From: Helicobacteraceae bacterium
GTDB taxonomy: Bacteria > Campylobacterota > Campylobacteria > Campylobacterales > Sulfurimonadaceae
Length of the DNA stretch: 64,000 bases
Assembly (NCBI GenBank): GCA_027038835.1
Contig: JALWGC010000019.1
Location: forward strand, 88,968-152,967
Reading direction: 5' to 3'
The notes beneath the pieces were generated by a model, which was not told where the DNA came from, did not search any database, and saw only the letters and a program-made list of their open reading frames with translations. Positions 7,190 through 24,334 of this stretch are shown here, one piece after another (the first letter of the stretch is position 1; each line of letters opens with the position of its first letter). The translations under genes and the position numbers were made by a program.

Positions 7190-8099
7190 TTTGAAACACC
7201 CTCAACTTCGCGCTTCTGCTACGTGGGTTTTGCGCCATCTCTTCTTTTGTAGCGGTTATAGGTTTCTTGGTGAGAATTTTTCCAAGAGCATGATCGTTGC
7301 CGCAGGTACAACGCATCGCCTCGCTTGGACAGATGCAAGATTTCGCCCATTTGGCAAAACGCTGTTTGACGATGCGATCTTCAAGCGAATGAAACGAGAT
7401 GATACCCACGGTGGAACTTTCAAGTTCGCTTCGCTCTATGGCATCCAAAAGGCGTGTCAATTCACCCAGTTCGTCGTTGACTTCGATCCGAATAGCTTGA
7501 AACACAAGGGTTGCAGGGTGGATTTTTTTCGTTTTTGGCAAGAACGACTCCAACATCTTGCTCAATTCGATCGCCGAAGAAAAAGGTCGTTTGGAGCAGA
7601 TGAGAGAAGCGACCTTTTTGGCGTTTTTCAACTCGCCGTACTCTTTGAGTATTCGCTCGAGCTCACCTTGAGAATAGCCGTTTATCACATCTGCGGCACT
7701 TAAAGGGCGCGATGCGTCCATTCTCATATCAAGCGTCTGGCTAAGAAACGAAAAACCCCGCTCTTTTTCATCGAGCTGCAACGAAGAAACCCCAATATCG
7801 GCTAAAATCCCTCGAGGTTGCACCCCTTCATCGAGTATGTTTTTCAAAACCTCGCTAAAACGCCCTTTGCGGATTTCGACACGATTCCCGTATTTTGCGA
7901 GCCTTTTTGTGCTGAACTCGATGGCGGTTTTGTCTTGGTCTATCCCGATAAGTTCGATGTTTGGATTGTGTTCTAGAAGCAGTGAAGAGTGTCCACCGTA
8001 CCCCATGGTACAATCAACGACCACCCCTTTGTCGATATGTGCGAAACTCTCCAGCACTTCATTGTACAAAACGGGGATATGGGGTATGTTCTCACTCAA
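7179..8099 (-). CDS. rsmH: 16S rRNA (cytosine-1402-N4)-methyltransferase RsmH (MraW)
   Basis: SAM-dependent methyltransferase acting on C1402 of 16S rRNA. At 306 residues it has the usual length and begins HIPVLYNEVLE, followed by the SAM motif DCTMGYGGHS near residue 29, GIDQD near 52 and the family signature ISFHSLEDRIVKQ near 233. The start is TTG at 8099, supported by AAGGA about nine bases upstream. First gene of the rsmH-ftsL-RND-pfkA unit; a -10 TATAAT lies about 30 bases before it. Confidence 0.95.
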   Translation of the reverse strand: MSENIPHIPVLYNEVLESFAHIDKGVVVDCTMGYGGHSSLLLEHNPNIELIGIDQDKTAIEFSTKRLAKYGNRVEIRKGRFSEVLKNILDEGVQPRGILADIGVSSLQLDEKERGFSFLSQTLDMRMDASRPLSAADVINGYSQGELERILKEYGELKNAKKVASLICSKRPFSSAIELSKMLESFLPKTKKIHPATLVFQAIRIEVNDELGELTRLLDAIERSELESSTVGIISFHSLEDRIVKQRFAKWAKSCICPSEAMRCTCGNDHALGKILTKKPITATKEEMAQNPRSRSAKLRVFQIER

Positions 8100-8126
8100 A
8101 TGCGCATCCTTGGAAAATATAGGTAT

Positions 8127-8165
8127 ATTATACTAAAGATATGTAAAGCTTTAAAATTATATAAT
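8127..8165. promoter_or_regulatory. Divergent -10 elements between rsmH and the receiver protein
   Basis: On the minus strand TATAAT at 8127-8132 serves rsmH; on the plus strand TATAAT at 8160-8165 stands 34 bases before the ATG at 8200. Neither has a convincing -35 box. The 100-bp divergent region is strongly A/T rich. Confidence 0.55.
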
Positions 8166-8199
8166 CAAACTCTAATATTTTCAAGCAAAGGTTATCTCT

Positions 8200-9405
8200 A
8201 TGCAGATTTTACAGAACAATCTCTCTATACTTATCGTCGTTCTATTAGGCGTTGGGATACTCTTTTTCCTCTACAGAATCTTTCGTACGAAAAAGACCGA
8301 TATCATCCAACTCAACGAATACACGACAGACGTTGTCGATGATATCTACGCTCAAAACAAACCTTTGAAAAACGACGTTTTCAAGCAAAAGAGCATCAGC
8401 GACGACGCAGCGCCTCAAGAGAGTGCGCCCGAAGAAAAGTCGCTCAAACGACAAGACGAAGTTGGGCAGCCCACACCGCCTCAAACTCCCAAAAAGGAGC
8501 CAAAAGAACCTCTTGAAGAAACGCACGCGCAAGAGCTTGCGATGCAGGAACAACCACAAGAGGTTCCTCACAACCACAATCCACAAAGCCGAGCGAAAAA
8601 AGTATCGGTTCCTCCACATGGAAAAATATCCAAAGAGGATTTCAAACATTTCAGCGGTATCAAAGTCTTGGTAGCCGAAGACAACCTCATCAACCAAAAG
8701 GTCATAGCCGGTCTTTTGGACGGTTCGGGCATTGTCTTGGAATTCGCCAACGACGGTTTGGAGGCCATTAGCTACCTCAACAACCAAAAAGATTTCGATA
8801 TCGTTTTGATGGATGCCCATATGCCCAATCTCGATGGGTTCGAAGCGACGAGAAAAATTCGAGAACATGAAGAGTTTTCGGACATTCCCGTAGTCGCTCT
8901 AAGCGGTGACGTCGCAAAAGACGACATCAAAAAAATGTACGAATCGGGGATGGATGCCCATTTGGAGAAACCGCTCAAAATGGATGCGTTGTATGACGTA
9001 CTCTACGCTTTCACTACAAAAGAAGAAGAAAACAAAAAAGAAGCAAAAGAGCAAACGCAAGCTTTGAAATTCTCTCAACTCGACACCCAAAAAGGGATAG
9101 CTATTTCAGGTGGAGATGAAGGTTTTTACAAAGAGATTCTACAAGAGTTTCTTCAAGATTACGAAAATGCCCATGAAAACGTAAAAGAACTCCTTAGCAA
9201 AGGAAAGCTCAAAGACGCGGATGCTTTGTTACTCGATATCATGGGGATTACTGCAAATATCGGTGCAGAGACGCTCCATAGCGATTCTATGAGACTCAAA
9301 CAATCGTTACAAAACGTCAAAACGGGGGAGTACAAGCCTGCGTTCAAAGCGTTTCACACCTCCTTCAAAGAGCTTGTGGAGCAGATAAAAAGCTACCTTT
9401 CATAG
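8200..9405 (+). CDS. Membrane-anchored receiver protein with a degenerate HPt domain
   Basis: A 401-residue protein. Residues 8-26 form an N-terminal membrane helix; about 40-145 is a charged, Pro/Glu-rich linker. Residues 153-272 are a CheY-like receiver with acidic pocket ED160-161, phospho-acceptor D205 in LMDAHMPN and conserved K257 in EKP. The C-terminus (about 300-400) resembles a histidine phosphotransfer domain, but the segment normally reading HTLKG is LDIMG (345-349), so the phospho-histidine is replaced by Leu345 and the Lys by Met348. It looks like an orphan phospho-signalling adaptor held at the membrane. No kinase is adjacent on this strand. Confidence 0.75.
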   Translation: MQILQNNLSILIVVLLGVGILFFLYRIFRTKKTDIIQLNEYTTDVVDDIYAQNKPLKNDVFKQKSISDDAAPQESAPEEKSLKRQDEVGQPTPPQTPKKEPKEPLEETHAQELAMQEQPQEVPHNHNPQSRAKKVSVPPHGKISKEDFKHFSGIKVLVAEDNLINQKVIAGLLDGSGIVLEFANDGLEAISYLNNQKDFDIVLMDAHMPNLDGFEATRKIREHEEFSDIPVVALSGDVAKDDIKKMYESGMDAHLEKPLKMDALYDVLYAFTTKEEENKKEAKEQTQALKFSQLDTQKGIAISGGDEGFYKEILQEFLQDYENAHENVKELLSKGKLKDADALLLDIMGITANIGAETLHSDSMRLKQSLQNVKTGEYKPAFKAFHTSFKELVEQIKSYLS

Positions 9406-10079
9406 ATGACGTAGCCCGCTCCGTAAACGTTTCTCAAAACTCCTTTTGGGAGTTTTGAGCGTAACCGTTTTATAAGCGATGTTACCGAATCGGAAGAAAA
9501 CTTCATCTCCTGATTGTTTGGATGGATCGTATAAAAAATCGTCTGTGCCGAAACCGGTTTGGAGAGGTTCTCGCACAAAAGGCGCATACACAACCTTTCT
9601 TTCGTTTTTAGGGGAATCTCCTCTTTGTTTCTATAAAGCTTTTCCCCTATCTTGTCCCAGTAAACATCATCGTCTAGATATACCCTTTTTTGTGTTTTTC
9701 GAAGCTCGAACACGCTTTTAAAAAGGATATCTTTGAGTTTTTCGACATTGATCGGTTTGATAAGATAGGTCTCAAGATGCAGTTCCACCGCTTTTAGAAG
9801 TTTTTCTTCTTCCGAATGCGCACTCATAATCACTATGCGCGTTTCTTTATCCTCCTCTCGAATCTTCGAAATGAGTGAAAGCCCATCGAGTGATGGCATA
9901 TTGATATCGGTTATGATGATATCAGGCTTTTTGTCTTTATATATCTTGTACGCTTCTTCCCCGTTTTGCGCGCTATATACCTTGACAAAAAAAAGGTGCA
10001 GATACTCGCTGATATACTCCAAAAGCTCTTTTTCATCCTCCGCGACAAGAAGCGATATGTCATTGATTCTACTTTCCAT
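9393..10079 (-). CDS. OmpR/PhoB-family response regulator, partner of the ODP histidine kinase
   Basis: A 228-residue two-domain regulator. The receiver (about 5-120) has acidic ED15-16, phospho-acceptor D58 in ITDINMPS, and the lysine of LIKP near 108. A C-terminal winged-helix DNA-binding domain (about 135-228) ends in the typical YGAGYVI hairpin. The ATG at 10079 is chosen over an adjacent GTG because AGGAG lies at the right distance. It overlaps the kinase gene by 11 bases, which marks the two as a cognate pair. Last gene of the nor/nir unit. Its 3' end overlaps the convergent gene by 13 bases. Confidence 0.88.
   Translation of the reverse strand: MESRINDISLLVAEDEKELLEYISEYLHLFFVKVYSAQNGEEAYKIYKDKKPDIIITDINMPSLDGLSLISKIREEDKETRIVIMSAHSEEEKLLKAVELHLETYLIKPINVEKLKDILFKSVFELRKTQKRVYLDDDVYWDKIGEKLYRNKEEIPLKTKERLCMRLLCENLSKPVSAQTIFYTIHPNNQEMKFSSDSVTSLIKRLRSKLPKGVLRNVYGAGYVIYER
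9433..9459 (+). terminator. Strong hairpin terminating the plus-strand receiver gene
   Basis: An 11-bp perfect stem CTCAAAACTCC / GGAGTTTTGAG with a 5-base loop, 27 bases past the stop codon at 9405. It lies inside the coding region of the convergent response regulator, so it must serve both as hairpin and as codons. There is no T-run directly after it. Confidence 0.5.
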
Positions 10080-11577
10080 CACCCTCTCCTATTTCGATGG
10101 TAAACGCAGCGCCCTTACCGACGTTACGTGCCGTTAATCTTCCACCCATATTGTCTTCGATTATCATCTTGGCTATGTAGAGTCCAAGCCCCGTTCCCAT
10201 AGACTGGTGCTTGGTGGTAAAATAGGGATCGAAAATCTTACCCAAATGCTCTTTGGCTATCCCCCCGCAATCATCCTCTATGACAAGGTAGATTCTTTTG
10301 TTTTTTGTATATAACCGTATCTTGACGTTGGCTTTTTTCATATGCTTCTCGACTACGATATCTCGAATGTTCGAAAGTATCGTAACGAGCACTTGAACGA
10401 ATTCGTTGATAAGCCCGTACGCTTGCAAGGTTTGGTCTATCTCAAGGCTTACAGCTACTTTGAACTCCTTCGAGATCGAGAAGTTGACGATATCGAGTGC
10501 TTTGTAAATAGCTTCGGCGATGCTAAAAAACGATTTTTCCTTATCGGGTCGGTAGTAGTTCATAAAATCCTCTATCGTCTCCGACATATACTCTATGTGG
10601 TGCTGCATACTCTCGAGTTTTTCACCAAGCTCCTCCGGACGCAGCATTTCCATCTGATTTTTCTCTTTTATTATCGCGACAAGGGTACCGAGTATCGCCA
10701 AAGGTTGACGCCATTGATGTGCGATATTGCCAAGCATCTCTCCAATCTCGGCGCGCTTCGACTGTGCAAAAAGCGCTCTGTTGCGCTCTTCTATGGTTCG
10801 CTCCTGCTCTTTGAGACGCTCTATGGTGTCAAGCAACTCTTCGTTGTATTTTTTGTCTATGTACAAACCGCAATCGAGTTGTTTCATATCTTCTATCAGC
10901 GAAGCGATAAAAGGTTTTTTGATGATAGAACCGTGTTGGGGAGCTATGAGATCGATATCGAGCGATTCGATTTTTTTCAAAGCGTAATTGAAAATATCTT
11001 TGCTTGGCATATACTCTTGATGGAACTGTTTCGCTTTTAAAAAATAGTCCTCACGCGCATAAAATTCCCAGCTTTGCTCTATACCTCCGAAAATATCTCC
11101 CGAAAACAATGTTTTGCTTCTTGGCTCGTACGTTACAAAAGCACCCGGCGAATGGCAATACGGAGTGGTCAAAAACTCTAACTTCAAACCGTTTTGGGTA
11201 AGAAGTTCGTAGTTGTTCTTGTCTATTTCATAGTAACTCGAGCGCACAAGATAATGTTTTATCAATACCGTCATACGTGAATGGGTGATGATTTGCAAAT
11301 CTTCTCTGTCTATGAGTTTTTCTATCTCCGGTACTGCGGCTACGAGGTCTGGGTCTTGATGATGCAAAACGATATATTTGATGTTTTTAAAGTCGGTAAC
11401 GCTCGCGATTTTTCGAGTCGTTTCTTCAAACTCTATCATCGAGCCCGGGTCAATCAAAATCGACTCTTCACCGTTTTCTATCAGGTAAGGATGGCATTGA
11501 AACGCATCATCGGGTAAATACATCCCGACCCAATAGATATTATCGGCTATTTTTACAGCCTCCTCATACCGTTTCAT
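10069..11577 (-). CDS. Histidine kinase with N-terminal ODP-like (di-iron metallo-beta-lactamase fold) sensor
   Basis: A 502-residue soluble protein. Residues 1-235 form a metallo-beta-lactamase fold of the flavodiiron/ODP type with a near-complete di-iron ligand set: H73-Q-D75-P-D77, H142 (YCHSPG), D161 (FSGDIFGG) and H215 (PQHGS). Flavodiiron enzymes have Glu where this has D75. A coiled linker (about 240-275) leads to a kinase: H-box IAHQWRQPL with H287, N-box N403, G1 DDCGGI (435-440) and G2 GTGLGL. No flavodoxin domain and no membrane helix are present, so it is probably a cytosolic O2 or NO sensor rather than a reductase. The ATG at 11577 gives the natural flavodiiron-like start and a 14-base overlap with cobA. 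Function as a gas sensor is inferred. Confidence 0.85.
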   Translation of the reverse strand: MKRYEEAVKIADNIYWVGMYLPDDAFQCHPYLIENGEESILIDPGSMIEFEETTRKIASVTDFKNIKYIVLHHQDPDLVAAVPEIEKLIDREDLQIITHSRMTVLIKHYLVRSSYYEIDKNNYELLTQNGLKLEFLTTPYCHSPGAFVTYEPRSKTLFSGDIFGGIEQSWEFYAREDYFLKAKQFHQEYMPSKDIFNYALKKIESLDIDLIAPQHGSIIKKPFIASLIEDMKQLDCGLYIDKKYNEELLDTIERLKEQERTIEERNRALFAQSKRAEIGEMLGNIAHQWRQPLAILGTLVAIIKEKNQMEMLRPEELGEKLESMQHHIEYMSETIEDFMNYYRPDKEKSFFSIAEAIYKALDIVNFSISKEFKVAVSLEIDQTLQAYGLINEFVQVLVTILSNIRDIVVEKHMKKANVKIRLYTKNKRIYLVIEDDCGGIAKEHLGKIFDPYFTTKHQSMGTGLGLYIAKMIIEDNMGGRLTARNVGKGAAFTIEIGEGDGK

Positions 11578-12310
11578 CGCTCCCAAACCACGCCAATTGT
11601 TCTCGAAGCTCAACCACCTTGCCGACAACTATAAGTGCAGGGGTAGGCAGATTTTTCGCTTTTTCTTCTATGTCGTTCAACTTACCGACTACAACTCTTT
11701 GTTGCGGTGTCGTCCCTTTGGAAATAACTGCTACGGGGAAATCGGGCGATTTGCCAATCTCGATCAGTTTTTTTGCGATATTGCCAAGGTTGTGCAGCCC
11801 CATCAAAAAGATGATAGTATCGTCGGTTTTGAAGTTCTCCCATGGAATCTGCGAAGCACTTTTTTTGGCTTCATGCCCCGTTACGACCCGAAAACTCACC
11901 GCTACACCTCTATGTGTCACGGGAATACCGGCATAAGCAGGTACACTGATAGCCGAAGTGATTCCGGGGATAATCTCAAAAGCCACACCCCGCTCTTTCA
12001 GGTACGCCCCCTCTTCTCCGCCACGACCAAAAACAAACGGATCGCCCCCTTTAAGACGGCACACGATACCGCTTTTAAGCGCTTCTTGGTAGATCGTTTC
12101 GTTTATCTCCTCTTGAGGGAGCGTATGTCTGCCATCCTCTTTTCCGACATAGACAAAACGGCAACCGTCTTTCGCCATCTCCAAAATTTTCGGATTTGCA
12201 AGACGGTCGTAGATGATAACGTCCGCTTCTTCTATGACACGTGCAGCTTTAAGGGTCAGCAGCTCCACATCACCCGGACCCGCGCCCGTTAGGTAAACTT
12301 TGCCACTCAT
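11564..12310 (-). CDS. cobA: Uroporphyrinogen-III C-methyltransferase (NirE/CobA, SUMT)
   Basis: Transfers two methyl groups from SAM to uroporphyrinogen III to make precorrin-2, the branch point to siroheme and heme d1. The 248-residue protein starts VYLTGAGPGDVELLT, and has LKGGDPFVFGRGGEE near 84-98 and the PGITSA segment near 114, all SUMT signatures. It lacks a fused CysG dehydrogenase; that activity is on a separate gene at 24399. Placed between nirF and the sensor kinase, it is the NirE of the heme d1 pathway and probably also serves siroheme. ATGA overlap with nirF. Confidence 0.95.
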   Translation of the reverse strand: MSGKVYLTGAGPGDVELLTLKAARVIEEADVIIYDRLANPKILEMAKDGCRFVYVGKEDGRHTLPQEEINETIYQEALKSGIVCRLKGGDPFVFGRGGEEGAYLKERGVAFEIIPGITSAISVPAYAGIPVTHRGVAVSFRVVTGHEAKKSASQIPWENFKTDDTIIFLMGLHNLGNIAKKLIEIGKSPDFPVAVISKGTTPQQRVVVGKLNDIEEKAKNLPTPALIVVGKVVELREQLAWFGSDETV

Positions 12311-13413
12311 CGTTTCTTCTCCTCGTATTGGTAGATAAATATTCCCGAAGGTTTTTTTATAGTGAATATCTCACGATTGAGCCAAAAACCGTTGGTATTG
12401 AGTACGGCAACTTTGTTCGTGTCATTGACGGAGACGTAAAGTTTCGGTTTTTCTTTGGACCATCGCACATGAAGCACTTTACCGTCAAACGTGTGGGTTT
12501 TGATGATTTTGAACGTTTTGGTATCGATAATTTGAATAGTCGGGAAATCTTTTCCGCTAAAAGTGACTGCGAGATATTTGCCATCGGGACTAAGTGAAGT
12601 GAACACGGGAAGCCCTTTTGTTTGTATCGCTTTTACGAACTTGAAATCGGGCGTATAAACAAACACTTTGTTGTCTCCAACAGCAGGAATGAAAACGTTT
12701 TTATCGCTGATGGACCAAAAACCGAAATGGGGTACTTTAAGCACCGGTTTTCTATCTCCAAGTTTAAGCTGAATCTTCTCAAACTTCAAACTATCGAGAT
12801 CGACCACGCCAAACCATGGACTCATAAAGTAACCGTTAATGTACTTGTCCCCTTTTATCATCGCATCAAACGGCATAGTACCGGTATGCTCGAACTCTTT
12901 GACCAATGCAAAGTGAGGTTTACCGTTTTTGTAGCTTTTTTTATAGACCGCTATCGCGTCTTTGTCCATTTCGGAAAAGACAAGATAATCTTTATATATT
13001 TTTATACCGACGTTTCGAGAACCGGTTTTGATTTTTTGGATCGGTTTTAGATCACGTGTTAAAATATCGACACTTTTGTCGTCGTAGTTCGCAACCGCGA
13101 CAAAATCTTTGTCTATAACGAATCCTATGGCACTTTTACTCGTTTTATACTCGTTGAGTTTTTTTTCTTTTATCGGATCGAAACGTACGACATATCCGTC
13201 ACGACTGATCAAATACCCGTCATGGTCGTAGAACTTGATAATGCCATGATTGAGATTGTGCATATGCTCCATTCTGCCTCTTGGCAATCCATCTTCGATA
13301 ATTGCCACACTGCTACTTTCACGCTCGACGACGAAAATTTTCTCTTTCGCACTGAGATTCGTCATTCCAATCCCAATTACCAATGCACCTAAAAGTAGTT
13401 TTTTTATTTTCAT
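12307..13413 (-). CDS. nirF: Heme d1 biosynthesis protein NirF
   Basis: A 368-residue beta-propeller protein related to the d1 domain of NirS. An N-terminal signal peptide (about residues 1-22, LLLGALVIGIGMTNLSA) sends it to the periplasm, where NirF carries out a late step on the d1 precursor. Histidines at 50, 52 and 56 (MEHMHNLNH) lie where NirF has its functional His cluster. There is no CXXCH, which argues against the related NirN. It overlaps nirJ and cobA by ATGA at both ends, so the three are tightly coupled. Confidence 0.85.
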   Translation of the reverse strand: MKIKKLLLGALVIGIGMTNLSAKEKIFVVERESSSVAIIEDGLPRGRMEHMHNLNHGIIKFYDHDGYLISRDGYVVRFDPIKEKKLNEYKTSKSAIGFVIDKDFVAVANYDDKSVDILTRDLKPIQKIKTGSRNVGIKIYKDYLVFSEMDKDAIAVYKKSYKNGKPHFALVKEFEHTGTMPFDAMIKGDKYINGYFMSPWFGVVDLDSLKFEKIQLKLGDRKPVLKVPHFGFWSISDKNVFIPAVGDNKVFVYTPDFKFVKAIQTKGLPVFTSLSPDGKYLAVTFSGKDFPTIQIIDTKTFKIIKTHTFDGKVLHVRWSKEKPKLYVSVNDTNKVAVLNTNGFWLNREIFTIKKPSGIFIYQYEEKKR

Positions 13414-14534
13414 ATTTCCCTCTCTCTTTCTTCTTTAGTTAAATAACACGACGGGTCTTCCGCCCATAAATCGCCGCTGATGGCGTACGCTCTGGCTCTT
13501 GAACCTCCGTTACAGATGGCTATGTGTTTGCAAGTGCTACATATGCCGCTAATATCACGCGGATGCTTTCGAAGCTTGTCTAAAAGCTCTCCGCCCTTCC
13601 AGATTTCTCTAAAATCCTGCTTTAAAATGTTCCCTACCGTAAAAGGGAAAAACGGGTCGGGTCTGACATCCCCTTCGGAATTGATATTAAGCAGTTTTCT
13701 CCCTGCCGAATTTCCGCCCCATTTTAGAAGTCGGTCTTTTAGTTTCTCTTTTTTATCGGGGTATTTCTTTGCAAAACGCTCAAGAAGCATTATCGCATCC
13801 ATCTCCATATTGCCCGTCACTATCTCGATATCTCTGCCGTTTTCATAGTACTCAAATGCCTTATCGAGGATGAACTCCACCGCTTCTCTGCGCTGCTCTT
13901 TACTCAAATCCATCTTGAGGTTGTCCAACCCTCTCCCGCTGTAAACAAGGTGGGAAATGTAGATTTTTGGGATATTCTCTTTTTCGGCAAGTTCGAAAAT
14001 GAAGCGCAAAGAACCTATGGTGTCTTTTGTCATTGTAAAACGGATACCGACTTTGGAGTTACCCACTGCATTAGCGAGTTTGACCGCTTTTAGCGTTTCT
14101 TTGAACGCGCCGGGAAGCCCTCGAAAATAATCATGCGTTTTTTCATCGCCGTCGATGCTCACGCCGACATAGTTGAACGTCTTGGTGATTTTTTCGACAT
14201 TCCCTTTGGTAAAGTAAAGACCGTTACTTGAAAGGTAGGTAATGATGCCGTTTTGTTTGCAAAACTCGGCGATTTCGAAGATATCTTTTCTCGTTAGCGG
14301 CTCACCGCCGGAAAATATGATAAACTTCACCCCCGCTTCTTTCATCTGCAGAATCGTCTTTTTTATATCTTCCGTCGTCAAGGTATCGACCGCATCGAGC
14401 CCCGACTTGGAATAACAGTGCAAACAGTTGAGGTTACATCGGTTGGTGAAGTTCCAAATGGCGATGCTGCCATCGAGTGAGCGTTCGAGTTTTTCCTCCA
14501 CTACCGAAGCTATGAGGTTAGATAGTCGAAACAT
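13410..14534 (-). CDS. nirJ: Radical SAM heme d1 biosynthesis protein NirJ
   Basis: A 374-residue radical SAM protein that removes the two propionate side chains of didecarboxysiroheme on the way to heme d1. The [4Fe-4S] motif is C33-X3-C37-X2-C40 (NRCNLNCLHC); FSGGEPL follows near residue 92. The C-terminus carries a SPASM-like set (CSTCKHIAICNGG and a later Cys) for an auxiliary cluster. The ATG at 14534 overlaps the stop of the cytochrome gene (TGATG) with GGGAG upstream; an in-frame GTG one codon earlier is less likely. Confidence 0.92.
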   Translation of the reverse strand: MFRLSNLIASVVEEKLERSLDGSIAIWNFTNRCNLNCLHCYSKSGLDAVDTLTTEDIKKTILQMKEAGVKFIIFSGGEPLTRKDIFEIAEFCKQNGIITYLSSNGLYFTKGNVEKITKTFNYVGVSIDGDEKTHDYFRGLPGAFKETLKAVKLANAVGNSKVGIRFTMTKDTIGSLRFIFELAEKENIPKIYISHLVYSGRGLDNLKMDLSKEQRREAVEFILDKAFEYYENGRDIEIVTGNMEMDAIMLLERFAKKYPDKKEKLKDRLLKWGGNSAGRKLLNINSEGDVRPDPFFPFTVGNILKQDFREIWKGGELLDKLRKHPRDISGICSTCKHIAICNGGSRARAYAISGDLWAEDPSCYLTKEEREREI

Positions 14535-14842
14535 CACTTCGCTCCCTTGTACGAAAGTACATAATCGCTTATAGCGTCCAGCTCTTCGGGTGAGAGGTGC
14601 AACTGTGTCATAACGCTACGTTTGTAACCGAACTTCTTGTACATCGTCCTCGGTGAAGAGATATACGCCATGATTTCCGCTTTGGAGCGTTTTTTGGCTA
14701 TCTCGCTAAAAGGGGGTCCAAACGCCATTGCACTCTGATGATGGCACCCCCAACAGTAGGTTTTGAAAACTTTCTCACCGCTTACGTCGCTTGCAAACAA
14801 CGAAAGGGAAACGAACAAACTAACAAACACCATTCTTTTCAT
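14534..14842 (-). CDS. Small periplasmic monoheme cytochrome c (NirC/NirM-like)
   Basis: A 102-residue class I cytochrome c. A signal peptide (about residues 1-17) precedes one heme site CWGCH near residue 30, and a likely axial Met lies in RSVMTQ near 78. Such proteins in nir operons donate electrons to NirS or assist d1 loading. The second of two close ATGs (14842) is chosen because AGAGGA directly abuts the first one at 14848. Which role it has cannot be told by sequence alone. Confidence 0.85.
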   Translation of the reverse strand: MKRMVFVSLFVSLSLFASDVSGEKVFKTYCWGCHHQSAMAFGPPFSEIAKKRSKAEIMAYISSPRTMYKKFGYKRSVMTQLHLSPEELDAISDYVLSYKGAK

Positions 14843-14911
14843 TTTCATTCCTCTTAGATAACTATTTATTCTACCCTATTAAAACCATCAAAAGAACAAT
14901 ACCCCACATAT

Positions 14912-16024
14912 CTATCGCACTTTGTAACTATAGTGTTTCATTAACGTCGGTTTGGTAAGCGTTTCATCTTCCAAATCCAACACTTTCGTACAGTTAGGTT
15001 TGGCCAAGAGAAGATACATCTTCACCTCCACGACATCCCCTTTTTGGATATTTGGTATTTCGTATGTCAATATTTTGGTCCGCTTCGCTCCAAGGTTGTT
15101 GACAAATCCTCTTTTTGTAGCGCTTGAAGGGATGATGACACTTTCGTTCTTATCGTTTAAAAACTCTATATGAAACGCTCCTTGTTTGTCCTCTGTCGGG
15201 TCTTTGGTAAAGTTACGCCATACAACTTCGCCATCTCTCACCACTTCGATATCGAGATACTTCATTCGTGCGGCTTGAATGATAAGCGGATGGGGCATCT
15301 TGTTCGTTACGATGACTTCTATGCCGTTTGGAATCTTCTTTACCGCCAAATCGACACTCTCTTTTCGCATCTCTTCATTATGGATACCGACAAATTCATG
15401 GGAATGATGCTGCATCCTCCCTTTTTTATTCGTTTTTTCCGCGCCTCCGTTTACCATAGGCATATGGCACTTGATACACTCTTTAGCGTCTTGATTCTCT
15501 TGTATAGCTTGAAAAATCAAAACATCTTGGTCGTTTCGTTTGTGGGAATGGCATCCCAAGCAAACGTTTTTATCGTAAATAGGGTTGTTGAGCATCGCAT
15601 GTTTATCGCTGTCGTCCGGGTCTTGAAGCGAGCCGTACATATTTGGTTTGTACCCTTCTACCTGTTTGGCAACGACGTTGATATTGTGCTTATGCGCTTT
15701 TTTCACATAAGCGATTTGGTGACAAAACATGCACCCTATAGCGTCTGTTTGATCCTCGTACAATTTACTTGGATGCTCGCTCCCTTCAACCAAAGCTTGC
15801 AGGTTTCGTGCTGCCGGCATATGGCAAGGAGCGCAGTCGTATTTTTTTTTGCTGACTTTATCTGCCACTTTTCTATGCAATTCATCGTTGAAATAGGTCT
15901 TGGAGTGGTAAGAGTTCTGATACTCGTAATAAATCTCTTCGTGACACTCTTTACAAGACTCGTTCGTTAGATATTTTGCATATAAAAATGAAGATAAAAG
16001 AGCGATTATGTAGAAAGTTCTCAT
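14912..16024 (-). CDS. Pentaheme cytochrome c, nirS-linked copy
   Basis: A 370-residue secreted protein with a signal peptide (about 1-16) and five CXXCH sites: CKECH near 24, CAPCH near 65, CMFCH near 97, CLGCH near 155 and CIKCH near 184. Extra His pairs (HHSHEF) could be distal ligands. From about residue 225 there is a heme-free, beta-rich C-terminal domain. Fold and spacing recall the cytochrome c554/NrfA-like multiheme group. It is a paralogue of the protein at 21752. The role is unknown; periplasmic electron transfer to or from NirS, or binding of nitrogen oxides, is inferred from position. Confidence 0.82.
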   Translation of the reverse strand: MRTFYIIALLSSFLYAKYLTNESCKECHEEIYYEYQNSYHSKTYFNDELHRKVADKVSKKKYDCAPCHMPAARNLQALVEGSEHPSKLYEDQTDAIGCMFCHQIAYVKKAHKHNINVVAKQVEGYKPNMYGSLQDPDDSDKHAMLNNPIYDKNVCLGCHSHKRNDQDVLIFQAIQENQDAKECIKCHMPMVNGGAEKTNKKGRMQHHSHEFVGIHNEEMRKESVDLAVKKIPNGIEVIVTNKMPHPLIIQAARMKYLDIEVVRDGEVVWRNFTKDPTEDKQGAFHIEFLNDKNESVIIPSSATKRGFVNNLGAKRTKILTYEIPNIQKGDVVEVKMYLLLAKPNCTKVLDLEDETLTKPTLMKHYSYKVR

Positions 16025-16052
16025 AGTTTCCCTCTTTTATTGTGTACACAGA

Positions 16053-16077
16053 TTCACACCCCAAAAAGGAGTGTGAA
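16053..16077 (-). other. Intercistronic stem-loop upstream of the nirS-linked pentaheme gene
   Basis: TTCACAC (16053-16059) pairs with GTGTGAA (16071-16077), continued by two more G-C pairs around one mismatch and a loop of five A/T bases. It follows the nirS stop by 8 bases on the minus strand. The T-run is in the loop rather than after the stem, so an RNA processing or stability element, or a partial terminator, is more likely than a full stop. Confidence 0.5.
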
Positions 16078-16084
16078 ACAAGGC

Positions 16085-17722
16085 TTACGCACCCGGAATA
16101 GATTGTCTATGCTCGATGGAGTAAGTAAATGTAGGAGTAGTCAAACCTTTGATATATTTGACGAATTTTCCTGTTTTAGCTTCGTAAATACCGATACGTC
16201 CGGTATTCCACTCACTAATCATAGTCCATTTACCATGATTTGCCGGCTCAGCGTGGAGGATTCTAGGTATTACCGCTTTGCCGTTTTTATCTTTTACAGT
16301 AGGTACGCTCCATTTGTAAAGTGTTTTATGAGTTACAGGGTCATACACTCTACCTGTTTTCGTACCGACTTCGATGATTCTATCGACTACGAGCTCTTGT
16401 TTGTTGATAAGATGCACTTTGTTCCATGCAGTAGGACCACCTAGAACGTTGTCAGACCAGATAAACGGCGTATGCTCACTTGTACCCACAAACAAACCAC
16501 CGCCTGCAGTTCTCACATGCGCTACAACATCCCAGTTACTGTCCCAGATAACGACATCACCCACGTTCATACTGTTTGTAGCGTAAAGCTGACCGTATCT
16601 TTCGTTGTACCAAGAAGAACCTTGACCCGGGTGTGGTTTCGAACCGGGACCGGTATAAACTTTTGTAACGAGTTTTTTGGTCTTGAAGTCAACGACACCC
16701 ATGACGTCACTTCCTTGTGAAGCGATAAAGAGGTAACGACCGATCTCTTTCCCTTCGTTTTCGAAACCGTCATGGAGGATTTTACCGATATTTGGAATAT
16801 CCCCTACGATTGGATAATCAGGTTTTGAGTAGTCTATAATATACACATGACCACCATCTTTGAGTGCAAATGCGATATACGGCCCGTATGGAGTATCGAA
16901 AATCCCCGCTACACGAGAAGAATTGATATTTCCATCCGGATCGATCACGCTTGAAGTCGGATACACTTTAAGCGGCTCGAGCGTCATAGCATCCATCAAA
17001 ATAGCACCACCCGGTACATAGTTACCTGCTACAAGGTATTTACCATCAGGTGAAACCGCAAGACCGCGAGATTCGCTACCGACTCTTACTTCAGCGATTT
17101 TTTGTTGACCTTTAGAAGCGAGGTCGAACATCGTGACCAAACCGTCTCTTGAAATAGAGTAAGCATAACGTGGCATACGCTTGTTGGTTACCGTTACGTG
17201 AACCGCGAAACCTGCATTGTGTTTTGAAAGAATTTTACCCGTAGTTCCGTCGATGAAAGCGACACGAGAAGCGTCACGCTCGGTTACGAAACAGATATCG
17301 GTAACTTTTTTCACATCTGCTGGATGAGGGTATTTTTTGTAGAGCTTCATTCTATCGTTGATTTTTACCCATTTTTTCTTCACGTTTTCAAGGCTAAGAA
17401 CTTCGATCTTTTTCCCTTTGAAATGTTGAAGATAATCGACCATTTTCTGTGCATCGGCTTTTGAGAAGCTGTTTTTAAACGGAGGCATCGCAGTACCCGG
17501 GCGACCGTTCAAAATAGTCTCAGCTAGCATATAAGCGTTTTTCCCTTTTAGCTTGGCAGGTCTAAGGTCTGCTCCGACACCACCTTCATGGTTAGGACCG
17601 TGACACCCTTGACACTCTTTTTCGAACACTTTTTCTACATCCATGTTGGACGTACCCGCAAAAACTCCTGTTGAAACCAACGCAATAGCAGCTGCCGACA
17701 TAACAAGTTTATTCAATCCCAT
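16085..17722 (-). CDS. nirS: Cytochrome cd1 nitrite reductase NirS
   Basis: Periplasmic enzyme reducing nitrite to NO. The 545-residue protein has a signal peptide (about 1-22), a heme c domain with C37-Q-G-C-H41 and MPPFKN carrying a probable axial Met near residue 79, then an eight-bladed d1 propeller beginning near 135. The d1 iron ligand is likely in FAVHVT near 172, and active-site histidines in LHDGFE and TSEHTPF. AAGGAG precedes the ATG. It lies between the nor genes and the d1 genes and is bounded by stem-loops on both sides. Confidence 0.97.
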   Translation of the reverse strand: MGLNKLVMSAAAIALVSTGVFAGTSNMDVEKVFEKECQGCHGPNHEGGVGADLRPAKLKGKNAYMLAETILNGRPGTAMPPFKNSFSKADAQKMVDYLQHFKGKKIEVLSLENVKKKWVKINDRMKLYKKYPHPADVKKVTDICFVTERDASRVAFIDGTTGKILSKHNAGFAVHVTVTNKRMPRYAYSISRDGLVTMFDLASKGQQKIAEVRVGSESRGLAVSPDGKYLVAGNYVPGGAILMDAMTLEPLKVYPTSSVIDPDGNINSSRVAGIFDTPYGPYIAFALKDGGHVYIIDYSKPDYPIVGDIPNIGKILHDGFENEGKEIGRYLFIASQGSDVMGVVDFKTKKLVTKVYTGPGSKPHPGQGSSWYNERYGQLYATNSMNVGDVVIWDSNWDVVAHVRTAGGGLFVGTSEHTPFIWSDNVLGGPTAWNKVHLINKQELVVDRIIEVGTKTGRVYDPVTHKTLYKWSVPTVKDKNGKAVIPRILHAEPANHGKWTMISEWNTGRIGIYEAKTGKFVKYIKGLTTPTFTYSIEHRQSIPGA

Positions 17723-17742
17723 TTTTTTCTCCTTTGTTTGGA

Positions 17743-17766
17743 TTGTGCCTCACAAGAGAGGCACAA
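17743..17766 (-). other. Intercistronic stem-loop between the nor genes and nirS
   Basis: A 9-bp perfect stem TTGTGCCTC / GAGGCACAA with a 6-base loop, starting 3 bases past the stop of the 50-residue membrane peptide and ending 20 bases before nirS. No T-run follows on the minus strand. It could protect the upstream mRNA 3' end or the nirS 5' end after cleavage. Confidence 0.55.
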
Positions 17767-17769
17767 GGT

Positions 17770-17922
17770 TTATTTTTCGTTTTCCAATCTCTTTTTCTCT
17801 TGATAGTAGATAAAGATCATTGGCAATACAACTAAAGTATGCAAAAAGATCGTCAAGGTCAAAGGACCTTGATTGAGCCATCCAAAAAAGCTTGGATTCA
17901 CATCTACAAACGGTTCGAACAT
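17770..17922 (-). CDS. 50-residue single-span membrane protein between norB and nirS
   Basis: Small ORF of 50 residues starting MFEPFVDVNPSFFGWL. One hydrophobic helix spans about residues 19-40 (ending MIFIYY), followed by a charged tail with several Lys and Glu. A good ribosome site, AAGGAG, is placed seven bases before the ATG, and the ORF begins 10 bases after norB and ends before the stem-loop, so it is well fitted to the unit. Not recognised as a named family. By position and topology it could be a small accessory subunit of NorBC, as CcoQ is for cbb3 oxidase, but this is inference. Confidence 0.7.
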   Translation of the reverse strand: MFEPFVDVNPSFFGWLNQGPLTLTIFLHTLVVLPMIFIYYQEKKRLENEK

Positions 17923-17931
17923 TTTCTCTCC

Positions 17932-19380
17932 TTATCTTTCATGTACCGGACTTTTACCGGAAGTGAGCAAGTCTTTAGCGAGGAAAACGAAACCAAGAAG
18001 GGTAACGACACCCATCACAAGTCTCCAATCCATCGCTTGTTGAAACCACATACCGGCTTGACCGTCGAAATATGCCTGCCAAGTACCACCCATTTGAGCA
18101 CGAGCTACAAGCACTTGAGAGTAACCGGCGATCGTAAGCGCTACCGTCATACCCACGACACCGGAAGTGATCAAACTAACACCCCAGATAGAAGCTTTGG
18201 TGTGATTCATCACTTTAATGCCGTTGGTACCTTGAATAGCAAGATACATCATACCGATAAGTATCGTCGCATACGCTCCAAAGAACGCCAAGTGACCGTG
18301 TGCCGCGGTAAACTGCGTACCGTGCGTATAGAGGTTGACTTGAGGCAACGTATGGAAGAATCCCCAAATACCTGCACCCAAGAAGTTACCAAACGCATTG
18401 AGCGTGATCCACGTAAATGCCGGTTTGTTTGTAATAACCGATTTTACATGATCTTCATCGGTATGCTCTGCACCCATCTGCTCACCTTGCGTTTTACCCC
18501 AGTCGTAAAGAACGTGGATGAACATCGCAACAAGCGGTAACGGTTCAAGTGCAGAGAAAAGTGCTCCGATTTCCCACCAGTATTCAGGTGTACCGATCCA
18601 GAAATAGTGGTGACCAAGACCCAAGATACCAGAACCAAAGAGCATCGCAACTTCGATCCACAGCCACATCTCGACAACTTTTCTGTGTGCACCGATGATA
18701 GTGATGAGTGCGTACGCTGCGAGTGAACCGACAAACACTTCCCAAGTCGCTTCAACCCAAAGGTGGATAACCCACCACCACCAGTACTGATCCATAGAGA
18801 TGTTGTCAGTAAAGAACATACCACAAAGGTACAAACCTGAAAACGCGATCATATCTGCCATAAGCACCGTTACGATACCGCTTCTGTTACCTTTCATTCC
18901 GGTAAAGAACAAGTTGGCGACAAACCCGAGTGCCACAACGACGATCCCAAGGTCAGCCCATCTTGGCGCTTCGATATACTCACGCCCTTCGGTGATGAAC
19001 CAGATGGTCGTATCGTCCGCCGGTCCAACTTGAATGAAAAGGTACACCAAAACGACTACGACGATAGCCGCTGCAAAGATCCAAAATAAAAGCTTCCCTA
19101 TTTTGATACCTACCGTTTCGATACCGGTTTCATCAGGTAGCAACCAATAAACGGAACCAAACATCGCAAAAACCATCCATACGACAAGCGCATTGATATG
19201 CAAGATTCTTGCAATGGAAAAGTCAAGCACACCGTAAAGGAAACTAGGCTCGACGAACTGAATAGCGGCTACCACACCAAAAACCAACTGCGCGCCGAAA
19301 ATGATCGCCGCAAACGTAAAATACCATGTAGCAAGCTGTTTCGATTCGCTTCCTACTCCTGTTAATGCATTATTTGCCAT
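17932..19380 (-). CDS. norB: Nitric oxide reductase large subunit NorB
   Basis: Catalytic, heme b- and b3/FeB-containing subunit of the cytochrome c-dependent NO reductase; reduces two NO to N2O in the inner membrane. 482 residues with about 12 helices. Ligand-bearing segments are visible: HINALVVW near 60, HLWVEATWEVF near 204 with the FeB Glu, GHHYFWIG near 254 with the FeB histidines, and AAHGHLAFFG near 344 with heme ligands. No quinol-oxidase N-terminal extension, so it is cNOR. The ATG at 19380 follows AAGGAG and overlaps the norC end by 11 bases; an upstream in-frame start would lie deep within norC. Confidence 0.97.
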   Translation of the reverse strand: MANNALTGVGSESKQLATWYFTFAAIIFGAQLVFGVVAAIQFVEPSFLYGVLDFSIARILHINALVVWMVFAMFGSVYWLLPDETGIETVGIKIGKLLFWIFAAAIVVVVLVYLFIQVGPADDTTIWFITEGREYIEAPRWADLGIVVVALGFVANLFFTGMKGNRSGIVTVLMADMIAFSGLYLCGMFFTDNISMDQYWWWWVIHLWVEATWEVFVGSLAAYALITIIGAHRKVVEMWLWIEVAMLFGSGILGLGHHYFWIGTPEYWWEIGALFSALEPLPLVAMFIHVLYDWGKTQGEQMGAEHTDEDHVKSVITNKPAFTWITLNAFGNFLGAGIWGFFHTLPQVNLYTHGTQFTAAHGHLAFFGAYATILIGMMYLAIQGTNGIKVMNHTKASIWGVSLITSGVVGMTVALTIAGYSQVLVARAQMGGTWQAYFDGQAGMWFQQAMDWRLVMGVVTLLGFVFLAKDLLTSGKSPVHER

Positions 19381-20023
19381 GAACCGCTCCTTGCATACGA
19401 CCGAAGTTTCTTGGGAATCCATTCGTGTCGATACTAGCCATATGTTTCAAAAACGCGACAAGCGCTACCGCTTCGTCATGTGTTATTCCAAGATTTGGCA
19501 TCATTCTTTCATGTGTCGGATATTGATCCGGATTCATCAAAAATGCCACCATAGCCTCTTCTTTAGAGTTTTTGCCGGTCATCGCTTGCATAGTGCCGCC
19601 GTCTTGCCAAGCCGGATCGAGCCAAGCTTTTGTAAGATCCGGAGCAAAATAAGCACCGTTACCAAGCAATGTATGGCAATCCATACAGTTTTTCGCTTGA
19701 GAAGCGAGTTTCCCCTTGTGTAAAAGCGCTGCAGCTTCTTCTTCGCTCCAGAACTTACCGAAAAACTTCTCTTTTTCAGGACCGATTTTTGGAACTTCAT
19801 GCCCTCTTCTGCTATCGAATACATAATCAACTTTATAGTTGATAACAGTTGGAGCAGGGACTCTTTTAGTCACTCCGTTTTTCAAATCTGCATCGGTTCC
19901 CATCGAGATTTGACCCATCGTATCGAACGTCAACCAAATCAACAATACCGACGCGACTCCTGTTACCCATGTTGCCGACCTTCGCCAAAAGCGATTGTCA
20001 CTCCATACGGATTTTTGTGCCAC
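19370..20023 (-). CDS. norC: Nitric oxide reductase cytochrome c subunit NorC
   Basis: Membrane-anchored monoheme cytochrome c feeding electrons to NorB. The 217-residue protein has an N-terminal anchor helix (about 14-32), then a periplasmic domain with C113-M-D-C-H117 followed by the family sequence LLGNGAYFAPDLTK and an axial Met in HERMMPNLG near 170. It is longer than the usual 150 residues mainly through a 60-residue insert between the anchor and heme. The start is GTG at 20023, five bases after AGGAGG; a nearby ATG is out of frame. Confidence 0.96.
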   Translation of the reverse strand: MAQKSVWSDNRFWRRSATWVTGVASVLLIWLTFDTMGQISMGTDADLKNGVTKRVPAPTVINYKVDYVFDSRRGHEVPKIGPEKEKFFGKFWSEEEAAALLHKGKLASQAKNCMDCHTLLGNGAYFAPDLTKAWLDPAWQDGGTMQAMTGKNSKEEAMVAFLMNPDQYPTHERMMPNLGITHDEAVALVAFLKHMASIDTNGFPRNFGRMQGAVHGK

Positions 20024-20035
20024 ATTACCCTCCTG

Positions 20036-20362
20036 TCAATGTTCATTTTCACGATGAACATGATCTTGCATATAATAAACCGCATGCGGAACCAAAAGCA
20101 GTCCCACCGCGGCAACAACCAGAGCTTTAGCCGTGAAATGATCCACATGCATCAGGCTCCCCATCAAATACAAACAGTACACGGTAAGAAGCCAAAAGCC
20201 ATAGCCTATTATCATAAACCATGGTTTTAGCAGTCTTACTTTCACTGCCGTAAAAAGCCCTACGTACAATCCTCCAAATACCAAAACAAGAGCAGAGGCG
20301 ACGAAAATGGTTAGAAAATCTCCCGATGCTATCTCCGGCGTCAATATAAGATTTTGCTCCAT
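20036..20362 (-). CDS. Membrane protein heading the nor/nir unit
   Basis: A 108-residue protein with three predicted membrane helices (about 14-36, 46-66 and 80-94) and a His-rich C-terminus (DHVHRENEH). It is the first gene behind the FNR-like operator and lies 12 bases before norC. It could be a NorE/NorF-type accessory protein or a quinone/cytochrome-linked helper, but no family is recognised. Good start with AAGGGG before the ATG. Confidence 0.7.
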   Translation of the reverse strand: MEQNLILTPEIASGDFLTIFVASALVLVFGGLYVGLFTAVKVRLLKPWFMIIGYGFWLLTVYCLYLMGSLMHVDHFTAKALVVAAVGLLLVPHAVYYMQDHVHRENEH

Positions 20363-20431
20363 TTTCTACCCCTTTTCTTATTTTTTCTTTAGAATCAAAT
20401 GTAGTTTATCATTCTTTAGGTTTAAAATTAA

Positions 20432-20445
20432 TTGACCTGTATCAA
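20432..20445. promoter_or_regulatory. FNR/DNR-like operator of the nor/nir unit
   Basis: TTGACCTGTATCAA, a CRP/FNR-superfamily box (consensus TTGAT/C-N4-A/GTCAA). The centre is 76 bases before the first ATG. If it acts at -41.5 the start site would be near 20397, with a -10-like GATAAA/ATAAAC at 20404-20410. It differs from the box at 24335 at only one base. Confidence 0.7.
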
Positions 20446-20528
20446 TTTTCCATACTAAAATAGAAATTATAAAAAAATACGCTTTTTTTGTTTCATTTTG
20501 TAACATTTCTCGATTTTTTTTCGAAAAA

Positions 20529-20555
20529 TTGACAATATTGTCATAATATTGTCAA
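20529..20555 (-). terminator. AT-rich hairpin: terminator of the 62-residue protein gene, or an operator
   Basis: An 11-bp perfect stem TTGACAATATT / AATATTGTCAA with a 5-base loop. On the minus strand it is followed by TTTTT, which fits an intrinsic terminator for the gene ending at 20635, though only two to three pairs are G-C. Its ends also read TTGAC and GTCAA, like the operators nearby, and it contains the palindrome TGACAATATTGTCA. Both readings are possible. Confidence 0.45.
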
Positions 20556-20634
20556 AAAATAGAAAAATTTCTTCGTTTAAGGTTAAAAGGAAGATTTTAG
20601 CAACAAAAAATACAATCTATACGATTTCTGTTGC

Positions 20635-20823
20635 TTACATATAATAAAAGAGGGAAGATAAAGAGAGTGTTACCACTATAGTGGTTACGACGACTACCGT
20701 TCTTTTTTTCGTTTCATCGAGCCCTAAGCGCTCTTCAAGATAATCACCGAGTTTCAAAGCCGGAAAAACGGTAAAAATAAGCATAGGAAAACCCATCACC
20801 ATTATCAAAACAAAATCATGCAT
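20635..20823 (-). CDS. 62-residue two-helix membrane protein
   Basis: Starts MHDFVLIMVMGFPM at an ATG (20823) preceded by AAAGGAG; a longer frame would lack a ribosome site. Two hydrophobic helices (about 4-22 and 41-60) flank a short charged loop with Glu, Arg and Lys. Not recognised. It stands alone between the nor unit and a divergent lipoprotein gene, with an FNR/DNR-like palindrome only 14 bases before its start, so it may be expressed or repressed with the denitrification genes. Confidence 0.6.
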   Translation of the reverse strand: MHDFVLIMVMGFPMLIFTVFPALKLGDYLEERLGLDETKKRTVVVVTTIVVTLSLSSLFYYM

Positions 20824-20836
20824 AACGCTCCTTTGC

Positions 20837-20850
20837 TTGACTTTCGTCAA
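20837..20850. promoter_or_regulatory. FNR/DNR-like operator between the 62-residue protein and the lipoprotein
   Basis: TTGACTTTCGTCAA, with perfectly symmetric half-sites TTGAC/GTCAA, the pattern known for NO-responsive DNR/NNR regulators. For the plus-strand lipoprotein at 20910 it lies about 40 bases before a start site implied by TATAGT at 20871-20876, a suitable activator position. For the minus gene starting at 20823 it is too close and would be repressive. Confidence 0.6.
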
Positions 20851-20909
20851 TAGAATTAATCATATATTTATATAGTATTATACCAAGATTACAAAAAAAA
20901 GGATATACC

Positions 20910-21287
20910 ATGCAAAAGAAGTTGATCGCAGGTGTCACTTTTTCGTTGGTTTTACTATTTGGTGGATGTTCGCATACTTCCCCTTCAGCCTCACAAGAAA
21001 GTGCGAGTCACTCCGAAAATGCCGTTTATAGCTCTGTAAAAAACGACAAGCAGTTGAAGAAACTGGTACTCAAAGCCGCTAAAGAACAAGGATGGCGCAC
21101 GACAGCGTTGGGTGAGAATGCGATAATCGCAGAAAAGTTCGATTCAGACAACCCAAAGGCGACAACTATCAAAATCGGTAACGGCGTTGTGGATTTTAAC
21201 AATATGGAAGGAACCGACTCGGGTGATATAGTCGATCTCAAAGAGTATATCGAAGACCTTCTAGAAGCACAACAAGAGGAGCATTAA
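20910..21287 (+). CDS. Small lipoprotein in the denitrification island
   Basis: 125 residues with a lipoprotein signal peptide ending LLFGGC (lipidated Cys near 20), a Ser-rich linker, and a small mixed domain (about 45-120) containing WRTTALGENAIIAE. Probably anchored to a membrane facing the periplasm. No family recognised. AAGGAT precedes the ATG. It is convergent with the 103-residue membrane protein gene, overlapping its end by 4 bases. Confidence 0.65.
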   Translation: MQKKLIAGVTFSLVLLFGGCSHTSPSASQESASHSENAVYSSVKNDKQLKKLVLKAAKEQGWRTTALGENAIIAEKFDSDNPKATTIKIGNGVVDFNNMEGTDSGDIVDLKEYIEDLLEAQQEEH

Positions 21288-21595: not shown

Positions 21596-21750
21596 TTCAA
21601 TCTCTCCCCCACCGGTTTAATAGATACGTTTACGTCTTGAAACATCTTTTTCTCGAACATAGTCACTCCCATCGTTCCAAGTAGCATCAAAAACACCACA
21701 AACGCCAAAATGACAAACGCCACGCCGTATCTTTTCAATATCTCTTTCAC
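21592..21750 (-). CDS. 52-residue single-span membrane protein
   Basis: Starts with GTG at 21750 two bases after the stop of the pentaheme gene, with AAGGAA upstream, and runs to a TGA that overlaps the TTG start of the next gene. The sequence begins VKEILKRYGVAF and has one long hydrophobic helix (about 9-30), then a short periplasm-facing tail with KPVGERLN. Position and ends fit translational coupling with both neighbours. Function unknown. Confidence 0.6.
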   Translation of the reverse strand: MKEILKRYGVAFVILAFVVFLMLLGTMGVTMFEKKMFQDVNVSIKPVGERLN

Positions 21751-21751
21751 C

Positions 21752-24275: not shown

Positions 24276-24334
24276 GCTAAAAACCATCCAATAAATTAAT
24301 TTCTTTATTTTAGTAGAAAAAAGTTACTCTTTTT

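Follow-up and report, generated by a model that had tools for sequence, protein, structure and literature searches.

An ODP-domain histidine kinase and its OmpR-type partner behind nor-nir genes: a candidate switch for anaerobic life in Campylobacterota

The kinase-regulator pair of the nor-nir operon

We analysed 64,000 nucleotides of DNA from a member of the Sulfurimonas family (Helicobacteraceae bacterium, assembly GCA_027038835.1, contig JALWGC010000019.1, positions 88,968 to 152,967 of the forward strand), hereafter the window, in which a histidine kinase with an ODP-type sensor domain and a response regulator are the final two, overlapping genes of a norCB-nirS-nirJF-cobA unit. An earlier note on this DNA had suggested that the pair is a two-component oxygen or nitric oxide (NO) sensor that controls denitrification outside the usual FNR, NarXL or NorR routes. 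The genes of the unit and the domains of the kinase, with lengths and residue ranges in amino acids (aa), are as follows.

9393..10082, minus strand: OmpR-family response regulator with receiver residues D59 and K109 and a Trans_reg_C domain (Pfam Response_reg, Trans_reg_C); its start overlaps the kinase stop
10069..11577, minus strand: soluble ODP-HisKA-HATPase_c sensor histidine kinase, 502 aa, ATG at 11577 (Pfam, PDB sequence, structure model)
10930..11502, minus strand: ODP di-iron sensor domain of the kinase, aa 26-216, with H73, D75, D77, H142, D161 and H215 (Pfam, alignments)
10543..10743, minus strand: HisKA dimerisation/phosphoacceptor domain, aa 279-345, with H287 (Pfam, structure model)
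10090..10389, minus strand: HATPase_c domain, aa 397-496 (Pfam)
11564..12310, minus strand: cobA-type uroporphyrinogen-III C-methyltransferase, overlapping the kinase start (Pfam/NCBIfam)
12307..13413, minus strand: nirF-like cytochrome d1 domain protein (Pfam)
13410..14537, minus strand: nirJ-like radical SAM protein (Pfam/NCBIfam)
14534..14848, minus strand: small cytochrome c, first gene of the overlapping run that ends in the regulator (Pfam)
14912..16024, minus strand: multihaem cytochrome c (Pfam)
16085..17722, minus strand: nirS, cytochrome cd1 nitrite reductase (Pfam)
17932..19422, minus strand: norB, NO reductase subunit B (match to 3o0r, E 1.5e-94)
19370..20023, minus strand: norC-type cytochrome c subunit (cytochrome c domain; named from context)
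20036..20362, minus strand: 108-aa protein, first gene of the nor-nir operon, no Pfam match

Six consecutive genes overlap from the small cytochrome (14848) to the end of the regulator (9393), with 14 bp common to kinase and cobA and 14 bp common to regulator and kinase; the neighbouring nir genes were identified by Pfam/NCBIfam models, and the open reading frames, frames and coordinates of kinase and partner are as the earlier note had given them.

The sensor domain of the kinase matches Pfam PF19583 over the full profile (positions 1-194 of 194; E 1.9e-62, 211 bits against a gathering score of 27.2), and the C-terminal part matches Pfam HisKA and HATPase_c. Pfam detected no flavodoxin domain in the protein, and the kinase domains come after the ODP domain, bearing out the description of a flavodoxin-free sensor fused directly to a kinase. 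The six ODP ligands, whose numbering in the earlier note was exact when counted from the ATG at 11577, are invariant across 24 aligned ODP kinases. The closest PDB sequences are the two solved ODPs (6qrq and 6qnm), which share the ligand set HQDPD/H/D/H, with aspartate as second ligand; the position after the third ligand is L78 in the kinase and V in the solved ODPs. Against the flavodiiron NO reductase 1ycf (HTESDH) the kinase reads HQDPDL, with D75 in place of the glutamate and L78 in place of the final histidine. The catalytic boxes of the kinase are intact (H287, N403, D435, GTGLGL), and no transmembrane segment was found in it (best 19-residue hydropathy 1.31). In the predicted structure (mean predicted local distance difference test, pLDDT, 83.4; predicted template-modelling score, pTM, 0.52), the ODP fold continues into a single 67-residue helix (residues 242-308) that bears H287, and the best PDB structure matches are the ODP entries 6qrq, 6qwo and 6r9n, the last being the peroxy di-iron form (template-modelling score 0.80-0.83 by target length). 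Structure prediction and alignment thus both returned an ODP, with ODP-type ligands rather than those of flavodiiron NO reductases. The kinase is the sole ODP-family match in the source genome at E 0.001. We conclude that its input domain is an ODP domain, and predict that it acts as a cytosolic di-iron sensor that would bind iron and oxygen.

The ODPs of Treponema denticola and Thermotoga maritima (6qnm, 6r9n, 6qrq, 6qwo) share with the kinase the Pfam family, the fold, the H-x-D-x-D/H/D/H ligands and the lack of a flavodoxin domain. The T. denticola protein, however, is a separate chemotaxis protein, described as an oxygen sensor coupled to a chemoreceptor homolog (PMC7666581), whereas the window has its ODP as the input part of a HisKA kinase that is paired with an OmpR-type regulator. 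The title of Muok 2019 (doi 10.1073/pnas.1904234116) names ODPs as Fe(II)/O2 sensors. Flavodiiron NO and oxygen reductases (1ycf, Escherichia coli flavorubredoxin) have the metallo-beta-lactamase-type di-iron core in common with the kinase but carry a flavodoxin domain and an H-x-E-x-D-H motif, which in the flavodoxin-free kinase is altered at the glutamate (to D) and at the last histidine (to L78); by its domain content, the window protein is predicted to be a sensor and not an enzyme.

Distribution and genomic contexts of the pair

In a sample of 397 Campylobacterota genomes, an ODP-domain match of some kind occurs in 99 and a close ortholog of the kinase (70% identity or more) in 23; genome G360 holds a variant at 57% identity, located away from the nir operon. 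The co-occurrence survey with nirS proposed in the earlier note revealed a strong association: at a match threshold of E 1e-60, nirS was called in 22 of the 23 kinase genomes versus 29 of the 374 others (Fisher P 4.5e-21, not corrected for descent), G357 carrying the kinase without a nirS match at this threshold. An nrdD gene is present in 21/23 kinase genomes versus 166/374 others and was not found in the source genome of the window. The kinase closes the nir operon in 17 of the 23. All 18 kinase genomes tested for it, of the 23, have a regulator ortholog (48% identity or more), which was found in none of 10 genomes without the kinase, where G238 and G360, the holder of the 57% variant, give 37% matches. 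From this genetic linkage and co-occurrence, kinase and regulator are predicted to be HisKA/OmpR phosphotransfer partners. The pair is missing from eight nirS genomes of the window's family (G009, G014, G026, G036, G128, G238, G306, G360), and in these cobA is not trailed by kinase and regulator. We had expected a Crp/Fnr regulator in the vacant kinase slot, but none was present in the five pair-less genomes inspected, where the neighbours are a Sel1-repeat protein (G009, G128), a protein of no family (G014), a TetR protein (G238) and a thioesterase plus reductase (G360). Separately, ODP proteins 69-71% like the window domain occur in metagenome-assembled genomes (MAGs) labelled Gammaproteobacteria or Pseudomonadota (L163, L164, L169, L155), by transfer or mis-binning.

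Removal of identical regulators left 61 unique loci: 36 nir-type, 15 ilvB-type, 8 nrd-type and 2 other. In the nir-type context, found in the window and 16 further genomes of the family, nirJ-nirF-cobA-kinase-regulator lies behind nirS and norCB (without norCB in L069). In the ilvB-type context, which belongs to Sulfurovum-type genomes, the pair is divergent from ilvB and unlinked to nirS. In the nrd-type context, it stands directly ahead of nrdD, which encodes the oxygen-labile ribonucleotide reductase and was identified by Pfam in L179, L157 and L150 and by similarity to L179 elsewhere; nrdG follows nrdD in the four loci whose contig continues (L078, L179, L181, L183), a thioredoxin gene precedes the pair in one branch, and nirDLGH lies 3-4 kb upstream in three loci (L179, L183, L191).

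In a tree of 96 ODP-domain sequences, the nir-linked loci and one upstream-cut locus group in a single clade, in which the window branches deepest and whose support of 92/83 falls short of the starred level, so that nir linkage looks like a single event that was then inherited. The nrd-linked loci occupy two or more places and need at least two changes, and their linkage may be ancestral or may have been gained more than once. The tie to nitrogen-oxide genes on which the earlier note relied holds in part: Sulfurovum-type and nrdD-linked loci carry the pair off the nor-nir operon, although three of the latter keep nirDLGH 3-4 kb away. This pattern points to an anaerobiosis system that was recruited to denitrification rather than to a denitrification-only sensor.

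The same type of input domain serves other outputs in ODP-GGDEF, ODP-GAF-hybrid kinase and ODP-SpoIIE proteins, the GGDEF fusions forming a separate clade on the tree, and the ODP-PAS kinases belong to the nrd-linked loci L179, L181 and L191. The outputs seen across L079, L086-L099, L145, L179, L190 and L198 are of at least five kinds: histidine kinase, PAS histidine kinase, GAF-hybrid histidine kinase, GGDEF and, in a Leptospiraceae MAG, SpoIIE phosphatase. In two ODP proteins (L098:9347-10846, with a GGDEF match, and L099:10004-11518) several of the metal ligands are gone (NYEPD, Y for H), and these are candidates for natural metal-free forms. ODP kinases of about 960 aa in L141, L145, L147 and L151 adjoin further kinases and receivers, that of L145 being a GAF-containing hybrid kinase, and L130:1-5900 holds two cytochrome d1 biosynthesis sets (nirJ, nirF, cobA) on opposite strands of the same contig.

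A tandem box, a putative small RNA and candidate targets

Many loci carry a promoter box after the regulator gene, consisting of TTTGACA-N3-TTTGACA, 11 bp and a TATACT-like -10 element. Requiring 9/10 or more core letters no further than 300 bp past the regulator stop, and omitting 3 of the 61 loci for short flanks, we found the box in 12/14 ilvB-type and 8/8 nrd-type loci (together 20 of the 22 scorable), in 9/34 nir-type loci and in 0/2 others. Among 2000 pieces of 300 bp drawn at random from these loci, 39 reached the box score, true sites included. The box starts at most 62 bp from the regulator stop in every positive locus except L070 (203 bp), and in L174, one of the two ilvB-type misses, it spans the stop codon itself. 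Three nrd-type loci (L179, L183, L181, the last with an early stop codon in the frame) have an additional box about 40 bp ahead of the nrdD start, and L191 has one about 320 bp ahead of nrdD. The box is a probable binding site of the regulator. A GTGACA direct repeat with 11-bp spacing lies ahead of nrdD in many Sulfurimonas-family genomes (L200-L225), with or without an ODP kinase; it was dropped as a regulator box because it occurs without the regulator.

Downstream of the box, a short hairpin RNA is predicted, for which we propose a putative small-RNA gene next to the regulator. The ilvB-type RNA has a C-rich loop and two predicted stems; of the 17 pairs in these stems, six show changes of both partners in one or more sequences. 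Rfam gave no small-RNA match in five ilvB- and nrd-type loci or in window positions 8000-26000, a search that did not include the nir-type RNA. Run over 28 genomes, a model of the ilvB-type promoter and RNA matched G218, G220, G162 and G318, each time immediately behind the regulator; among pair-less genomes it matched G315 weakly and the other eight not at all, and it did not match G332, G253 and G356, although the box trails the regulator there. Matches in nrd- and nir-type loci rest partly on the box, because the model includes the promoter. Two further RNA signals are a second, weaker match between ilvB and the kinase gene (L165:7954-8101) and a c-di-GMP-I-GGC riboswitch slightly below gathering score (L160:166-241).

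The box also occurs in trans. A box plus -10 pattern with up to 2 mismatches, run on 16 genomes (10 with the pair, 6 without), gave 21 matches versus 5 for the reversed control. In all five Sulfurovum-type pair genomes a site behind the regulator is accompanied by another ahead of a nir-island operon (G387 has two extra sites); G332, which has the pair, has no match. The operon encodes a 113-aa protein (weakly DUF2249-like, E 0.004) and an unnamed membrane protein, and in the four genomes examined it adjoins cysG-N and nirDLGH, near nirJ and cobA. Its tandem box is immediately followed by an Fnr-type box, and in G203 and G364, which have nirS and no pair, the same operon (54-79% identity) in the same place has the Fnr-type box and no tandem box. 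These comparisons provide good evidence for a predicted regulon of the pair that spans anaerobic and denitrification genes.

In the window itself, two promoter elements precede the nor-nir operon.

20432..20445, no strand assigned: Crp/Fnr-type palindrome TTGATACAGGTCAA of the norC-operon promoter, conserved whether or not the kinase is present
20539..20556, minus strand: candidate response-regulator box TTTGACAATATTATGACA, 11-bp spaced, the best matrix match in the window

A matrix built from 29 boxes gave the second element, about 180 bp ahead of the first gene of the operon, a score of 21.4, the next best score in the 64 kb being 11.8, and the site recurs upstream of the norC operon in L120, L123 and L143, the nearest loci by kinase identity (70-71%), and ahead of nirS in L135. 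Several observations weigh against a regulon that includes the window operon. The best scores of 15 Markov control windows ranged from 11.8 to 20.0, two of them reaching 19.0 and 20.0; the window site is embedded in AT-rich palindromic sequence, with a spacing of 11 bp, not 10; and L121, the nearest row by tree path, has no norC-promoter site. The window genome has no match to the box plus -10 pattern or to the small-RNA model, and its bare repeat, found 96 times at 2 mismatches versus 53 in the reversed control, had the promoter layout in none of 11 instances inspected. Beyond the window, the box was not found after the regulator in 25 of 34 nir-type loci, and five of the 21 pattern matches fall in pair-less genomes (G009, G036, G128 and two in G315). 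Moreover, if nir linkage arose once, the many linked genomes represent few independent events. The norC-operon promoter is the best candidate target of the regulator in the window, and the case for it is suggestive only. Two other motifs were considered and not adopted: a TGTTTC-N5-GTTAC block at norC promoters of pair genomes, which resembled a regulator box but got no high score with the matrix of post-regulator boxes, and a TTTGACA motif ahead of the small cytochrome gene, which overlaps a promoter also present in pair-less genomes.

Crp/Fnr-type boxes occur with and without the pair. TTGA-N6-TCAA occurs upstream of the norC operon in 16/16 pair genomes and 7/8 pair-less ones (at another distance in L104), compared to 2.9% of random 260-bp pieces, and a TTGAY-N4-RTCAT site precedes the kinase in 17/19 ilvB-type loci (one reversed), compared to 2.7% of such pieces. 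The source genome yielded two Crp/Fnr-family proteins in searches with PF13545 and PF00027 (PF00325 was not searched), and both lack the FNR cysteine cluster. Of the denitrification sensor of the earlier note, the tie of the pair to nirS, the nir operon and the nir-island box thus stands, whereas the bypass of Fnr-type control is not supported, although the lack of an FNR cluster in either protein speaks in favour of the claim and would allow the ODP kinase to be the oxygen input. Since Fnr-type boxes lie at the same promoters, the pair would act alongside Crp/Fnr-type regulators, perhaps under them, and not instead of them.

These promoters also bear on whether the pair merely rides along as the last genes of the nir operon, a passenger co-transcribed with it and controlling the small RNA or nrdD but not nor or nir. 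We regard this as unlikely: 15 of the 16 scored norC-operon promoters with the pair show no recognisable box and nor-nir promoters retain the Fnr-type box with or without it, but the strong sites ahead of norC in the window, L120, L123 and L143 and ahead of nirS in L135, and the nir-island box in all five Sulfurovum-type genomes where the pair is unlinked, argue for control of nitrogen-oxide genes.

Oxygen sensing and the proposed mechanism

The reading that we favour, with moderate confidence, is that kinase and regulator form a cytosolic two-component system which signals the loss of oxygen and controls an anaerobic regulon; the binding events and the sign of regulation are predictions from sequence comparison. 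The ODP domain would bind a di-iron centre, whose O2-bound and reduced states would alter the coiled-coil helix holding H287 and shift the balance of kinase and phosphatase activity. The phosphorylated regulator would then bind tandem TGACA repeats, 10-11 bp apart, beside or replacing the -35 element. Its targets in relatives would be the adjacent small-RNA gene, nrdD and the nir-island operon beside its Fnr-type box, and the best candidate in the window would be the norC-nirS operon, where Crp/Fnr-type regulators would act at the same promoters; as this operon ends in kinase and regulator, the pair would be under feedback. The position of the kinase before nrdD, which belongs to an oxygen-labile pathway, at two or more places on the tree favours anaerobiosis as the signal. 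On a broader proposal, which we put forward tentatively and would not yet back, kinase, regulator and adjacent regulator-driven small RNA are an ancestral Campylobacterota anaerobiosis module whose di-iron sensor gives the oxygen input of FNR and which moved from nrdD to nor-nir, taking denitrification genes into its regulon.

Against oxygen sensing as such stands that NO, Fe(II) or peroxide may equally be the ligand on these data. An NO-sensing ODP domain would make the pair an NO-responsive nor/nir switch, in keeping with its operon of NO and nitrite reductases, the distant relationship of ODPs to flavodiiron NO reductases and the Sulfurovum-type box at an operon holding a weakly DUF2249-like gene. 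We nevertheless consider this improbable, as the pair also stands ahead of nrdD, G357 has it without a nirS match, and the ligands are those of ODPs, Fe(II)/O2 sensors by the title of Muok 2019, and not of flavodiiron NO reductases. It is more doubtful still that a different OmpR-type regulator binds the TGACA box and that its link to the pair is indirect, for although the similar GTGACA repeat precedes Sulfurimonas-family nrdD with and without the regulator and pair-less genomes hold 5 of the 21 pattern matches, the 10-bp version directly trails the regulator gene in three genomic contexts, the promoter and RNA model matched at the regulator in four genomes and, of nine pair-less ones, weakly in G315 alone, and two regulator-less genomes lack the nir-island box.

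As an oxygen-sensing system, the pair seems to be a switch for anaerobic life that has not been described before, and we found no description of an ODP histidine kinase in open-access papers, a body of literature without most subscription journals. ResDE/SrrAB-type O2/NO two-component systems with the RsaE/RoxS small RNA exert respiratory control with a small-RNA output, and the pair would resemble them in working principle, the window kinase having a different sensor domain, no membrane segment and an unrelated lineage. PMC6682613 describes denitrificans as apparently mostly constitutive so far. The analysis puts names to a sensor and its partner and adds a probable DNA box with three kinds of probable target, pair-less genomes serving as natural controls; it would extend the ODP domain beyond chemotaxis to gene regulation and indicates an unnamed putative small-RNA gene.

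Elsewhere in the window, a hemerythrin, a DUF2249 protein and a 418-aa membrane protein are encoded consecutively at 32890-34794. By eye we had taken the membrane protein (32890-34146) for NnrS, a name backed by neither Pfam nor NCBIfam. Its relatives recur in nir islands and, in L120 and L143, also behind the ODP pair at a distance of about 1 kb.

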